NCBI GenBank assembly: GCA_005881995.1
Contig: VBHV01000074.1
Location: 5,512 to 10,694 of the forward strand
Source: Chloroflexota bacterium
Lineage (GTDB): Bacteria > Chloroflexota > Ktedonobacteria > Ktedonobacterales > Ktedonobacteraceae
Reading direction: 5' to 3'
DNA: 5,183 nucleotides
Under the pieces are notes generated by a model. That model had not been told where the DNA came from. It made no database searches and saw nothing but the letters and a program-made list of their open reading frames with translations. The translations under genes and the position numbers were made by a program. Positions 73 through 5,183 of this stretch are shown in pieces. Positions within the stretch are counted from its first letter, which is position 1. Every line of letters begins with the position of its first letter.

Positions 73-78
73 AGGAGG
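73..78 (+). promoter_or_regulatory. Ribosome binding site deciding the isomerase start
   Basis: A perfect AGGAGG lies 8 bases before the ATG at 87. A GTG at 78-80 is in the same frame, but its first base is the last base of this site, so it cannot be served by it. This decides for ATG 87 over GTG 78. Confidence 0.75.
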
Positions 79-86
79 TGTACATT

Positions 87-1001
87 ATGGCAAACTTGCG
101 TCTCGTTATCAATGTCTGCTTTGCGGTCAAGCGTTGGCCGGAACCAGAGCAGTGGGTGCGCATCGTGAAGGATGAGTTGGGGCTGGATTGCTGCCAGTTT
201 AGCTTCGACCTGGTTGACCCTTTGCTCGACGAGGGCACGACTATGGCTTACGCTGATGCTGTTCGCGAGCTTGCTGCTGCTCGTAATATCTTCATTCACA
301 GCGCTTTTAGCGGGCTGGCTGCCTATTCGTGGAGCCAGTTATTGCATCCACACCTGTCTATGCGCGAGGCGGCCACACGCTGGTATGAGCGTGCCATCGA
401 CTTCACGGCTCGCCTGGGAGCGAGCGGCATGGGCGGCCACATCGGCGCATTCAGCGTTCAGGATGCTATGAAGCAGGAGCGCAAACAAATTCTTTTGCGT
501 GAGTTGCGGGAACGGCTGACAGGGCTTTCGCACTACGCCGCGCACAAGGGGCTTTCTCACCTGCTGTTCGAGAACATGGCGGTAACACGCGAATGGGGAC
601 ACAGCATCGAGGAAGCGCAGTGGCTCAGCGACCTGGATACGCGCGGCGGGGTGCCACTGGTACTTTGCCTTGACGTGGGACATCCCTGCGCCCTGCACAC
701 GGGAACCGCCAGCGATGATTATCTCGCCTGGTTTGCAAGCTCCTGGTCGCATCTCCCCATTGTGCATTTGCAACAAAGCGACCGCACAGGCGATCATCAC
801 TGGCCTTTCACACGGGAGTATAACGCGCGAGGGATGATACGAGCGGAGGATGTGCTACGGGCAATTGAACCGTGGCTGACGCGTGGAGATGTGTTTCTCT
901 TTCTTGAGCCGATTCATCCTTTCGAGGCCGATGATAATGTGGTACTGGATGAGTTGCGAGAGAGCGTGGGATACTGGAGGGAGGCTCTGGCTAAAAGGTA
1001 A
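87..1001 (+). CDS. Sugar phosphate isomerase/epimerase, TIM-barrel (AP endonuclease 2-like) family
   Basis: This 304-residue cytosolic protein has the length and look of the xylose isomerase-like TIM-barrel family (COG1082), which interconverts sugars or sugar phosphates using a divalent metal. Visible signposts are an opening strand with NVCFAVKRWPEPEQW (residues 9-23), IHSAF (70-74), GGHIGAF (116-122), LLFENM (159-164), CLDVGH (194-199), IVHLQQSD (225-232) and FLEPIHPFE (272-280). A plausible metal tetrad is Glu162, Asp196, His227 and Glu274. His71, His118 and His199 probably lie near the active site. The start was chosen from the AGGAGG at 73-78. The opening residues recall erythrulose-phosphate epimerases/isomerases of tetritol catabolism, but this is a memory-based guess and the substrate cannot be read from sequence. 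Any operon partners lie upstream, outside the window. Downstream is a gene remnant on the opposite strand. No frameshift or missing core strand is apparent. Confidence 0.85.
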   Translation: MANLRLVINVCFAVKRWPEPEQWVRIVKDELGLDCCQFSFDLVDPLLDEGTTMAYADAVRELAAARNIFIHSAFSGLAAYSWSQLLHPHLSMREAATRWYERAIDFTARLGASGMGGHIGAFSVQDAMKQERKQILLRELRERLTGLSHYAAHKGLSHLLFENMAVTREWGHSIEEAQWLSDLDTRGGVPLVLCLDVGHPCALHTGTASDDYLAWFASSWSHLPIVHLQQSDRTGDHHWPFTREYNARGMIRAEDVLRAIEPWLTRGDVFLFLEPIHPFEADDNVVLDELRESVGYWREALAKR

Positions 1002-1376: not shown

Positions 1377-1406
1377 TTGACTTATCAATTGACGTTTTGG
1401 TATATT
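1377..1406 (+). promoter_or_regulatory. Candidate sigma-70-type promoter for the three-gene operon
   Basis: TTGACT at 1377-1382 and TATATT at 1401-1406 are separated by 18 bases, close to the housekeeping consensus. They lie about 70 bases before the GTG start at 1477. The surrounding 1361-1460 is only 23% G/C by count, a sharp drop from the genes on both sides. A second TTGACG at 1389-1394 has no well-spaced -10 partner. In so AT-rich a stretch chance matches are common, so the exact boxes are uncertain. The leader as the operon's promoter region is more secure than the boxes. Confidence 0.5.
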
Positions 1407-1476: not shown

Positions 1477-2034
1477 GTGGATTCTGTCCCGAATATAGCT
1501 GTAGAAATAGCGCGACAAGTCGCACCAGACGAAATTTTCGAGGCTCCGCTTATAGCCGAAAATTTCGTTAAGGGAGGCAAAAGCAGAAAAGAGCTTTTGC
1601 AGCAAACTAGAGCAGGAGAACTTGGAGGCTTTGGTATCGGTGAAGCGGCTATCCTACCCTGGATATTTCACGCGATGGCCGCGGCCGCCCCATTCCTTGC
1701 AGGCTTCCTAGCGTCCAGGACCCTGGATAATTCCAGCATCATCATCAGAGAAATCCATTCCGCGCTCAATGCCCGCAAGTCCACGCCCCAGAATCAGGGA
1801 CAGTCGAGCCAGCAACAAGAGCAGCAGGGTGCGCTTTCATCATCTCCACAGAATCAGCTTTATGCTGTACCGAAACAGTTGCAGCAGTGTGTAGGCATGA
1901 TGACAAAGGCGCTACAAAAGGCGGGCTTATCGCCGGAGGAGAGCGAGAGAGTTGCATATAAGGTAATCCTGGTGCTTTGGGAAGATGCTCCCGGTGCTTT
2001 AGTGTTTCTACACAAGATCACGGAGAAGAAATAA
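1477..2034 (+). CDS. Hypothetical protein with hydrophobic centre, first gene of protease/TIR-NACHT operon
   Basis: I do not recognise this 185-residue protein. Three parts are visible. Residues 1-50 are mixed and charged, with DEIFEAPLIAENFVKGG (19-34) and a probable short helix around SRKELLQQ. Residues 50-80 are a Gly/Ala-rich hydrophobic stretch (GGFGIGEAAILPW, then AMAAAAPFLAGFLA) that could be a membrane helix or a membrane-inserting segment. Residues 101-128 are a Gln/Ser-rich linker. Residues 129-185 look helical (QLQQCVGMMTKALQKAG, then SPEESERVAYKVILVLWED), possibly a small protein-interaction domain. There is no clear signal peptide. The start is GTG with the site at 1465-1472. Its stop codon shares its last base with the ATG of the M48 peptidase, so the two are probably translationally coupled and act together. 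It could be a partner, a substrate or an effector of that protease. The early codons contain two adjacent inverted repeats (see findings). Confidence 0.75.
   Translation: MDSVPNIAVEIARQVAPDEIFEAPLIAENFVKGGKSRKELLQQTRAGELGGFGIGEAAILPWIFHAMAAAAPFLAGFLASRTLDNSSIIIREIHSALNARKSTPQNQGQSSQQQEQQGALSSSPQNQLYAVPKQLQQCVGMMTKALQKAGLSPEESERVAYKVILVLWEDAPGALVFLHKITEKK
1528..1569 (+). repeat. Inverted repeat / RNA hairpin in early codons, 12-13 bp stem
   Basis: CGAAATTTTCG at 1530-1540 is the exact reverse complement of CGAAAATTTCG at 1557-1567. The pairing extends by A1529-T1568 and a G-U at 1528/1569, with a 16-base loop. It lies about 50 bases inside the first operon gene (codons about 18-31), where a hairpin in the message could affect early translation. 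Confidence 0.5.
1577..1600 (+). repeat. Inverted repeat / RNA hairpin, 8-bp perfect stem
   Basis: GCAAAAGC at 1577-1584 is matched by GCTTTTGC at 1593-1600 around the 8-base loop AGAAAAGA. It follows the preceding hairpin after only 7 bases, giving two stem-loops in tandem within the coding sequence. There is no U-tract after it, so it is not an intrinsic terminator. Confidence 0.5.
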
Positions 2035-4232
2035 TGGCAACTTCATTCACTCATGCCAAGCCAAGCGAGCAGAGAAGTAGTGTGTTGCCTCCCTGGCTCT
2101 GGTTCTGGCTCGCCGTTTATATCATAGGGGTTTCATCGGTATTTGATCGCGTAAAGGTGAATCTACTCATTCTCTTTACTGGCAATGATGGCATAAACTC
2201 TTCTATAAGGTATAGTGCATTTGAAAGAGTACCAGGCGTAGTAGAAATATTGCTTGATTTCGCTCTATTTACCGGTGTACTCACAGTGTTTCTTCCCTGG
2301 ATTAGAACTGTTTTCCTGCAGAGAAAATATGGACTCACTGAACCGCAGTTCTTACCACCCGGAACGCCACAACAAACCTTGCAGACCCTGAGCGGAGTAA
2401 GCGGATTTGTAAGGGAGCATGCACCTGGACTTATTCTTACATATAACGCTGGTGGGAAAATCCTATCGGATAAAGCCTTTGTATACCCTATCGGCTATCG
2501 CAAAGCGGGCCTGGCTCTATCTGGTAGGCTGTTAGCCCTCTGGAACAGAGATCAGCAGGCCGCCGAAGCGATTCTATTGCATGAAATAGAACACTTCCGC
2601 CATGGCGACATGCTTGTGATAGGAGCGGGGAGTTTACTTGAGACAATTATCAGGCGTTGGTTTCTGCTGACGGCGGTCTTCGTTATTATTCCTCTGGTTA
2701 TATCTCTCCTGATCGAACATATAACGTCCTTTCAGGAGGAAATGGGTATAGCGGCAGATCTACCAACGATTATCTCTTTTCATGTCCGGCAAGTTTTTAC
2801 CATGGATATACCTTTTATTGTCCTGATCCTTTCCCAATCGTTTTTCTGGGCGGCGTCACTCTTCACCATAGTAGTTATGGCGATCTGGTGTACGGAGATC
2901 AATGCTGACCGTTTCGTCGTGGACACAACTCAGTCAACACAGGCGCTGGAAAAGGCGACTGACCAGCATGCTGCCCCTACATCCTGGCGGCGCTGGCTGC
3001 TGTCAGGAGTATATCATCCACCCATAGCGCTCCGCCGGTGGCTGGTTCTACGATCAGAGGGGACGAAAGGCTTAACTCTCCTGCTGCTCCTTTTTCCAGC
3101 AGCGTGGTTTATTCGCCTGTTCTTCTTGTCCGGGTGGGCGCTATCTCAATACCTGGTTTTCCTTTATACAGGAACAAGTGCAGGCTATATTGTGGACGAG
3201 TTGGGCATCGATGCAGAGTACTTCCTTGAAGCGCTTGTACCGGTGTGGATCGCTATGGCTGTGTTGATAGTACTCTGGCCTATGCTGAGGCGCTACTGGG
3301 AGAGCATTTTTGCTCATGCAGCAGGGCGGCGGGCCAACGCAAACTATCCCGCATATCTCTCATCAACGGGCTTTGTCATCTTCGTCTGTATGATTGGCCT
3401 GATTCTCTCCTTGCTTCCAGCCCCCACAGAGCCTGCTGGCGCCACGCCGATTATTCCTTACAGCAGATCCAGCGGCCCCTCTGGCCACTTTCAGGTCGGC
3501 GAAACAGCAACAATTAGCAACGCGTGGATCATCGCCGTCCACGATGCGCAGGTAAAGCCTGATAATGGTTTATTTCCAGCATCGTCTGGACATGCATTTT
3601 TAGCCATAGATGTTTCATTGAAGAATATCTCTACGCAGACGAGCAATCTTGCCAGTGACTTCCAGTTTACCTTGCAGGACTTGCATGGTGTCAGGTATGA
3701 TGAGACGTATATCGCCGCTACTCCACCTCCGGCAGTGGCGCAGGATACACTTTCCTTTGAGGTTGACTGGAAAAACCCTGATCCCTCTAAAGTAACGATC
3801 TGGGATATCAAGGTAAACCCTGCTGTGGCTCCTACCGGAACCCCCGTTACTACGCCAACCCTGGCACCAACACCTTCTGCCAGTACCTCTACAACTGTCT
3901 ATCCAACCTTGCAGCAAGCGTACCAGGGGACACTGGTCAATACGACAGACAACAGCAACACGAGCGCTACCGCTACGCTCTCTTCCATAGTACAAGTTAA
4001 TGGAGACATCAGCGGGAATATGACGATCCAACTGCCACTCGCAGGCAGTGGTCCTTTTACGGGAACTGTAAGCAGCAATGGCGCAATTCAATTCACAGTG
4101 ATACCGACTGATAATTCTGGCTATGCTGCGATAGTATTTATGGGTACAATTCACCAAGATGGCAGTATGAGCGGAACATATACGCTTCCAGGGACCAATC
4201 AGGGAGGGACCTGGCAGTTCAAGCCCATCTAA
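2034..4232 (+). CDS. Multi-pass M48-family zinc metallopeptidase with DUF4352-like and C-terminal beta domains
   Basis: This 732-residue integral membrane peptidase shows the M48 (HtpX/Ste24-like) signature. HEIEH (183-187) supplies two zinc histidines and the catalytic Glu184. TEINADRF (287-294) supplies the third ligand, Glu288. YHPPIALRRWLVL (327-339) matches the HPP...R...L motif that follows in this family. Likely membrane segments are about 21-38, 69-90, 208-229, 258-285, 346-375, 399-418 and 444-463. By the positive-inside rule (QRK, RR, RRY, GRR) the catalytic loops at 91-207 and 286-345 face the cytosol and the tail from 464 faces outward. The tail holds a DUF4352-like beta sandwich (about 485-597), a Thr/Pro linker (600-625) and a beta-rich repeat-like domain (625-732) with GSGPFTGTVSSNGAIQFTV. 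It has no cysteine. ATG 2034 was chosen over an in-frame TTG at 1977 because GGAG (2022-2025) lies 8 bases before it and TAATG couples it to the preceding gene. It is far longer than HtpX (about 290 residues) because of the tail and extra helices. The zinc residues look intact, so it is probably active; its substrate is unknown. Confidence 0.88.
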   Translation: MATSFTHAKPSEQRSSVLPPWLWFWLAVYIIGVSSVFDRVKVNLLILFTGNDGINSSIRYSAFERVPGVVEILLDFALFTGVLTVFLPWIRTVFLQRKYGLTEPQFLPPGTPQQTLQTLSGVSGFVREHAPGLILTYNAGGKILSDKAFVYPIGYRKAGLALSGRLLALWNRDQQAAEAILLHEIEHFRHGDMLVIGAGSLLETIIRRWFLLTAVFVIIPLVISLLIEHITSFQEEMGIAADLPTIISFHVRQVFTMDIPFIVLILSQSFFWAASLFTIVVMAIWCTEINADRFVVDTTQSTQALEKATDQHAAPTSWRRWLLSGVYHPPIALRRWLVLRSEGTKGLTLLLLLFPAAWFIRLFFLSGWALSQYLVFLYTGTSAGYIVDELGIDAEYFLEALVPVWIAMAVLIVLWPMLRRYWESIFAHAAGRRANANYPAYLSSTGFVIFVCMIGLILSLLPAPTEPAGATPIIPYSRSSGPSGHFQVGETATISNAWIIAVHDAQVKPDNGLFPASSGHAFLAIDVSLKNISTQTSNLASDFQFTLQDLHGVRYDETYIAATPPPAVAQDTLSFEVDWKNPDPSKVTIWDIKVNPAVAPTGTPVTTPTLAPTPSASTSTTVYPTLQQAYQGTLVNTTDNSNTSATATLSSIVQVNGDISGNMTIQLPLAGSGPFTGTVSSNGAIQFTVIPTDNSGYAAIVFMGTIHQDGSMSGTYTLPGTNQGGTWQFKPI

Positions 4233-4246
4233 GCATCGACAGATGC

Positions 4247-4251
4247 AGGAG
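4247..4251 (+). promoter_or_regulatory. Ribosome binding site for the TIR-NACHT gene
   Basis: AGGAG is followed after only 4 bases (TACG) by the ATG at 4256, a shorter gap than for the other genes here. It lies in the 23-base gap after the M48 gene. A competing ATG at 4243 is in another frame and upstream of the site. Confidence 0.6.
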
Positions 4252-4255
4252 TACG

Positions 4256-5183
4256 ATGAGAACACAACAGAATATCTCATCCCCAAGAACAGTTTTCTAC
4301 GTGGCAACCAGTGCAGACGACTTATGGGTCGCTGAACTAGAAAAACACCTGCGCATTTTAAAACATCAGCAACTGATTACAAACTGGTCAGGGAGCAAGA
4401 TCACACCTGGCATGAAGAAGCTGGGCTCTCTCGAACACGCTCTTAACCAGGCTTCGGTGATCCTGTTACTCATCAGTCCCGACTTTCTGGCTTCGGATGT
4501 ATGTAACGTTGTTATGCGGCAAGCTCTCAAGCTCTCCTTAAACGATACAGGGACCGTCGTACCCATCTTACTACGTCCTGTCGTATTAGAGAACGTTCCT
4601 TTTGCCCACCTGCAATACCTCCCTCGTAACGGAAGATTTATAACCAGTTGGACAAACCGCGATGAAGCTTTTGTCGAAATCATAGAAGCTCTCATGGCGT
4701 TATTCGATCAAACTTCCCCACCTAAGCTACAGACCACTCTTTCAACAAGTTCAGGTCGCTTCATAGACATCCGGGATGAAGTGAATCGCGAACGTATGCT
4801 CAAGCGCATGCACGCAATTTGGATCGAAGATGTATTGGATGGGCAGTGGCTGCACAACGCAGTGTTGATGAATCCCGACTTTCATGAACATCCCGGCGCC
4901 ATTGATGATCCCTGGCAGTCAGTCATGCAGGAGAAAATGCGCCCTGAACGTCCACTTCCACCTGGCACGCGCATCACCGATGTATATGATAAGGCTGACG
5001 GAGCACTCCTTATCCTGGGAGAACCGGGCGCAGGCAAAACAACACTACTGCTGGAATTGACACGCGAACTGATAAAAACTGCGCAGCGGAGTGAACTCCA
5101 TCCTCTCCCAGTATTCTTTAACTTCGCTTCCTGGGAAAAGAAGCGGCTCGCCCTCGGTGAATGGCTGGTCGAGGAATTGCAGA
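4256..5183 (+). CDS. TIR-NACHT (STAND / NLR-like) NTPase, N-terminal part, runs off the window
   Basis: The frame is open from ATG 4256 to the right edge, giving 309 residues with no stop. Residues 12-150 form a TIR domain: strand A as TVFYVATSADD (12-22), W44, a BB-loop-like KITPG (48-52), SVILLLISPDFLASDVC (67-83) and TVVPILLRP (100-108), then TSWTNRDEAF (130-139). Residues 151-175 are a Ser/Thr-rich spacer. Residues 176-245 are the helical linker seen before NACHT modules in Ktedonobacteria-type proteins (RERMLKRMHAIWIEDVLDG, then PLPPGTRITDVYD). GEPGAGKTT (255-263) is the Walker A P-loop with Lys261, followed by LPVFFNFASW (284-293), a NACHT strand. Walker B and any C-terminal repeat sensor lie beyond the edge. 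NACHT STAND proteins oligomerise on sensing a trigger and activate an effector; many bacterial ones act in anti-phage defence. The canonical TIR motif has WCxxE, but here it reads VCNVV, so the catalytic Glu is apparently Val86. It is 23 bases downstream of the M48 peptidase gene and probably cotranscribed with it. Confidence 0.88.
   Translation, partial: MRTQQNISSPRTVFYVATSADDLWVAELEKHLRILKHQQLITNWSGSKITPGMKKLGSLEHALNQASVILLLISPDFLASDVCNVVMRQALKLSLNDTGTVVPILLRPVVLENVPFAHLQYLPRNGRFITSWTNRDEAFVEIIEALMALFDQTSPPKLQTTLSTSSGRFIDIRDEVNRERMLKRMHAIWIEDVLDGQWLHNAVLMNPDFHEHPGAIDDPWQSVMQEKMRPERPLPPGTRITDVYDKADGALLILGEPGAGKTTLLLELTRELIKTAQRSELHPLPVFFNFASWEKKRLALGEWLVEELQ

Follow-up and report, generated by a model that had tools for sequence, protein, structure and literature searches.

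A conserved pairing of a small helical protein with an M48-type membrane protease, found beside a TIR-NACHT gene in a Chloroflexota bacterium

The stretch of DNA analysed here (hereafter the window) comprises 5,183 nucleotides of contig VBHV01000074.1, from a Chloroflexota bacterium of the Ktedonobacteraceae, and carries three open reading frames on the plus strand that an earlier reading of the letters alone (hereafter the original prediction) had proposed to be an undescribed defence cassette. The first (1477–2034, GTG start) encodes a small protein of 185 residues, the second (2034–4232, ATG start) an M48-type membrane zinc protease of 732 residues with seven predicted membrane helices, and the third (4256–5183) a TIR-NACHT protein of which 309 residues are present, as this gene runs off the end of the window. 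The common strand, the TAATG at 2032–2036, made of the stop codon of the small-protein gene and the ATG of the protease gene, and the 23 bases (4233–4255) separating the protease and TIR-NACHT genes were all recovered as predicted, and no terminator-like site lies in these 23 bases. Judged by homology, the three frames are genuine genes rather than chance frames, because 15 homologues of the small protein and 52 of the protease were retrieved, the latter from the best 7996 candidates scored. The AT-rich promoter region announced upstream was recovered in part. An AT-rich stretch is indeed present with a promoter-like site at 1377–1406 (plus strand; TTGACT and TATATT spaced by 18 bases, TG before the second hexamer, 10 of 12 matches), but the window holds nine such sites versus 4.9 in shuffled sequences, so that this one is weak evidence.

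A profile scan with the protease alignment, using one genome per species, retrieved 16 loci, and a homologue of the small protein was present at every one of them (16/16), either as a separate gene directly upstream (11 loci) or in the same reading frame as the protease (five loci). The two genes overlap by exactly four bases at nine of the 11 split loci; a 5-base gap was observed at L009, and the start is unclear at L007. Among the locus labels, L005, L045 and L057 designate a single locus, as do L014 and L044. The small-protein alignment alone was then searched against five genome samples and gave matches in 2/292, 2/396, 1/43, 21/250 and 4/63 genomes, with at most 11, 8 and 13 candidates scored per genome in the samples of 292, 396 and 250 genomes, respectively, so misses are possible. 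These searches yielded 28 distinct genomes, 17 of them new; G002, G003, G004, G007, G1002 and G1010 had already contributed rows to alignment A3 and thus do not count as independent, and G006, G008, G831, G920 and G939 had first been found via the protease. An M48-type protease adjoins the small protein or is fused to it in 26 of the 28 genomes (15 of the 17 new ones, eight of these by fusion), and the 13 fusions all belong to the 250-genome family sample, the fused frame being broken in G831. Four of the 26 (G756, G898, G938 and G943) combine weak small-protein matches with divergent M48 proteins: the partner in G756 was recognised by eye through its HExxH and the pattern after it, with no family match, and that of G938 scores 0.2 bits under the Pfam M48 cut-off. 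The two exceptions are G924, where the locus breaks at a contig end and a protease stands at the end of another contig, and G1037, where a subtilisin gene (Pfam S8, 5.2e-30) precedes the small protein by 72 bases. Conversely, the protease subtype was detected in 17 genomes of the 250-genome sample, all of them within the 21 that carry the small protein (at most five candidates scored per genome in this protease search, so misses are possible). The three phylum samples (292, 396 and 43 genomes) provided five matches, of which only G459 was new, indicating that the pair is rare, and record titles distribute it over an archaeal bin and several bacterial phyla.

Taken together, the shared gene order, the fusions and the matching presence of the two genes from genome to genome strongly indicate that the M48 protease and the small protein go together, as had been proposed, and on these comparisons it is the pair, not the trio, that is the conserved unit. 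The closest named homologues of the two proteins (P0013, P0020 and P0021) come from metagenome-assembled genomes of Ktedonobacteraceae or Chloroflexi. The linkage is also suggested in the window's own group, where four small-protein/protease entry pairs were found on equal-sized contigs (8073, 33731, 9566 and 20519 bases), the sizes matching for both genes.

Several individual loci deserve mention. L047 (2238–4439), in a genome of the cyanobacterial sample, is the one clear instance where a subtilisin (S8) takes the place of M48 beside the small protein. The fused gene of a Microbispora (L015, 9230–10949) is split over two frames and is apparently decayed or misassembled. Finally, the pair loci L001 and L002 come from one site, resemble each other closely and are titled archaeon and Zixibacterium, respectively; L002, on a short contig, is probably misbinned, as the neighbours of L001 look archaeal by eye.

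The small protein has no Pfam or NCBIfam family over cut-off and no PADLOC match, and lowering the Pfam threshold to E up to 1 returned two chance-level matches only, with no EACC1 family among them. A conserved landmark is a GGFG motif at residues 50–53 (1624–1635, plus strand), for which alignment A5 gives G50 in 50/50 sequences, G51 in 43/50, F52 in 47/50 and G53 in 41/50. The predicted structure is all-helical, without alpha+beta parts, at a predicted local distance difference test (pLDDT) score of 79.5; residues 50–55, which include the GGFG motif, fall below 50 and appear disordered despite their conservation. The label ‘small hydrophobic protein’ given by the original prediction suits some relatives better than the window. 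The hydrophobic stretch at residues 57–75 reaches a best 19-residue hydropathy of only 1.64 here and is modelled as two short helices, whereas the equivalent stretch scores 2.22 in L001 and 2.32 in L026 and becomes a single helix of 21 residues when a natural fusion is modelled, so that the small protein may contact the membrane.

In the protease, the zinc-binding motif HEIEH (residues 183–187; 2580–2594, plus strand) and an ExxxD motif (E288/D292; 2895–2909, plus strand) can be read from the sequence, the latter being presumably the third zinc ligand, a role we assume from the M48 family. H183, E184, H187, E288 and D292 are all invariant in alignments A2 and A4. The window protein reaches 15.3 bits against Pfam M48 (PF01435), under the curated cut-off of 20.3; among 12 relatives scanned, 10 pass this cut-off, L049 falls 0.2 bits short and L004 is unmatched. 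Hydropathy and charge predict seven membrane helices; the two catalytic loops fall on the side that carries the positive charges, and the last 269 residues on the opposite one. This C-terminal outside part (residues 464–732; 3423–4229, plus strand) consists of a partial DUF4352 (residues 486–559; 33.1 bits, cut-off 25.9) and further sequence, and it varies among relatives: L003 has a Tudor-knot, P0030 a DUF4352 with a 3-keto-disaccharide-hydrolase-type domain, and no further family was found in the outside part of L001 or L004. Several of the pair loci are adjoined by a gene whose start, by eye, looks like that of a secreted protein or a lipoprotein. As a separate observation, the window protease has 24 residues fewer than the near-identical P0016, in frame, at about 3746/3747 inside DUF4352.

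A natural fusion of 615 residues was modelled with a mean pLDDT of 85.4, and the first 15 rows of its structural comparison are all metallopeptidases, including Ste24p, BepA, BlaR1 and HtpX. BlaR1 is among the nearest solved structures and provides the top Foldseek matches, with E-values that are not significant. On the basis of hydropathy and this comparison, the predicted arrangement, with a zinc site facing the cytosol and a variable domain outside, resembles that of BlaR1. The likeness extends to the BlaR1/MecR1-BlaI systems as a whole: BlaI is encoded beside BlaR1, and in the pair, too, a small partner is encoded beside a membrane-bound zinc protease that is predicted to have its HExxH in the cytosol and a C-terminal sensor outside. 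However, the protease resembles Pfam M48 and not M56 (PF05569), for which the window gives no match at E up to 1 and L001 attains 12.7 bits against a cut-off of 31; the outside domain is DUF4352 or another and not a penicillin-binding one, of which the window protease has no Pfam match; and the partner, unlike BlaI, can be fused to the protease and has no DNA-binding domain match, no helix-turn-helix being detected in Pfam or NCBIfam. With no M56 match, no penicillin-binding domain and no repressor, the best reading is that the pair works like BlaR1 but is not a member of that family.

Two other comparisons are informative. The pair shares with HtpX and Ste24 the catalytic fold, the HExxH and ExxxD motifs and several membrane helices, but its protease, unlike these two, has a partner protein of its own and is predicted to place a large part outside, and the window protease scores 16.7 bits against the NCBIfam HtpX model, the cut-off of which is 245. 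In the two-gene membrane conflict system described by Kaur et al. 2020 (PMC7159879), EACC1 is a membrane protein with one helix that usually stands beside a caspase. The two systems have in common a 5′ small protein followed by a 3′ protease gene, an actinobacterial prevalence, variable C-terminal domains and a caspase theme, whereas the pair consists of an all-helical protein beside M48, its 3′ gene being an M48-type protease and not a caspase or cyclase. The pair was found neither in the family libraries used nor in the open PubMed Central papers searched, in agreement with the original prediction, which knew of no named system with the trio. It thus appears to be a conserved protease-partner module not previously described, and its definition provides a recurring unit that none of these libraries describes.

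The genes surrounding the pair were then considered through family searches covering 29 of the 32 known pair-bearing genomes (all but G756, G831 and G943), drawn from groups other than Chloroflexota; short contigs (e.g. 4774, 6662 and 6066 bases) hide the neighbours of several pairs. A gene for the caspase-like CHAT protease was detected within approximately 4 kb of the fused protein in at least nine of these 29 genomes among the matches listed, and G924, through its protease contig, constitutes a tenth (at least 10/29). Gene density within 14 kb predicts 0.36 such cases, and none of 20000 simulations reached nine; this expectation was computed before the tenth case and assumes independent genomes, whereas these are related. 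The CHAT gene comes with the same partner gene (L008, L051–L053, L056, L089 and L091–L094), for which two scanned copies gave no Pfam match, and copies compared between two arrangements are 29–34% identical. In six genomes the arrangement is divergent with a CRP-type regulator in between, and in four it is convergent without the regulator. Gene order thus changed while the CHAT link stayed, which argues for a functional link, although these genomes all come from a single family and the remaining 19 show no CHAT at the listed contigs and places. Other death- or immune-type neighbours were also seen: caspase C14 (L049), SIR2_2 with nSTAND1 (L056) and a trypsin-NACHT gene on the opposite strand (L012, an Actinomadura) are single cases, and neither NACHT (1/29 versus 0.21 expected) nor C14 (1/29 versus 0.15 expected) is significant. 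The sample around G008 (L013, a Microbispora) represents a family that we take to be Streptosporangiaceae. The proposed tie between the M48 unit and death or immune genes is therefore retained for one bacterial family, where gene neighbourhoods support a link to a caspase-like CHAT operon. Independently of these genes, two Actinomadura loci (L009, 7174–9198; L012, 1–1092) carry an Hsp70-like gene that is divergent to the pair.

From these elements, a mechanism can be proposed. We consider the chances evenly balanced that the small protein and the M48 protease act as one unit, in which a sensor protease of the membrane works with a partner in the cytosol. The outside domain would sense an envelope signal, which would alter the membrane helices and open the cytosol-facing zinc site, as in BlaR1; the opened site would then bind or cut the partner, most likely at the conserved flexible GGFG loop, and the output would pass to an effector encoded nearby. 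This effector would probably be the CHAT-protease operon in Streptosporangiaceae, and in the window it may be the TIR-NACHT protein, which is the weakest step of a chain that we infer throughout, from signal to output. Because the partner can sit in the same chain as the protease, the data suggest a regulatory or pro-domain, possibly also a substrate, rather than a repressor that moves freely. Direct, testable predictions follow from the natural fusions and from the link to CHAT; they concern the way in which a membrane protease of bacteria may relay an external signal into the cell, and perhaps on to programmed cell death.

A broader version, which we advance tentatively and regard as possible though rather unlikely, is that the pair is a surface-sensing front end pluggable into varied death or immune back ends (CHAT-protease in Streptosporangiaceae, trypsin-NACHT in an Actinomadura, TIR-NACHT in the window), the protease releasing the GGFG-bearing partner domain to switch on effectors. 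If true, this would constitute a bacterial parallel to cell-death-triggering membrane proteolysis.

Alternatively, the protease could ensure a housekeeping, HtpX-like quality control of the membrane, served by the small protein as its own adaptor, and the immune-type neighbours could be chance or local companions. The M48 fold, the weak HtpX similarity and the ordinary-looking neighbours seen by eye at many loci are in keeping with such a role. Yet a distribution as patchy as 2/292, 2/396 and 1/43 genomes is hardly that of a housekeeping function, and both the variation of the outside domains and the link to CHAT are more suggestive of signalling; hence we judge this explanation unlikely.

The defence cassette initially proposed, i.e. 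a single anti-phage system where activation of NACHT would trigger cleavage by the M48 protein, with the small protein as third component, is in our view improbable. It draws on the single strand, the 23-base gap devoid of a terminator-like site, the death or immune genes near some relatives (CHAT and the L012, L049 and L056 cases) and the third gene itself, which resembles bacterial NLR-type proteins in combining TIR with a partial NACHT. The name ‘TIR-NACHT NTPase’ is borne out for TIR_2 (38.9 bits, over cut-off), with a PADLOC match to the ThsB-type TIR (1.2e-29), and for the Walker A motif GEPGAGKT (5018–5041, plus strand), read from the sequence as an intact P-loop match; the NACHT match itself is partial, the gene being cut by the window end, and stays under cut-off (21.6 versus 26.7 bits). 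ThsA had no PADLOC match among the four window proteins scanned, the window ending inside the TIR-NACHT gene. In the C-x-x-E motif of TIR domains, the glutamate is the expected catalytic residue. A weak alignment, to Cat1 (E 0.055), places a valine (V86) at this position, which makes an NADase role of this TIR doubtful. Above all, unlike what a cassette would imply, none of the 29 genomes has a TIR_2 less than 14 kb from the pair, the nearest on the same contig being 26 kb away, and NACHT occurs near the pair only in the Actinomadura case (at most 84 candidates scored per genome in the NACHT search, so misses are possible). The TIR-NACHT fragment likewise had no match at E up to 10 in the 16 related loci, some of which are short. 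The original prediction had named co-occurrence of the three genes as its check, and relatives usually standing apart from any TIR-NACHT gene as its refutation; such a neighbour was absent in every group sampled. The TIR-NACHT gene is thus probably merely a local companion of the pair, and a local association within the window's own group is possible.

Finally, a role of the small protein as toxin or pore-forming effector, released or destroyed by the protease, appears very unlikely: the hydrophobic stretch (residues 57–75) with its higher values in L001 and L026, the single helix of the fusion model and the overlapping genes would fit, but the low hydropathy and two short helices of the window protein, and the fusion of this small domain to the protease N-terminus in 13 genomes, argue otherwise.

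Upstream of the pair, the window also contains a sugar-isomerase-like TIM-barrel gene (78–1001, plus strand; AP_endonuc_2, 5.9e-13), which shows no sign of belonging to it. The intergenic region holds, on the minus strand, a decayed-looking remnant of an isopropylmalate/homocitrate synthase gene (1114–1311; Pfam HCS_D2, 6e-13, in a frame of 66 residues), and a second, shorter stretch similar to this remnant seems, by eye, to lie nearby.
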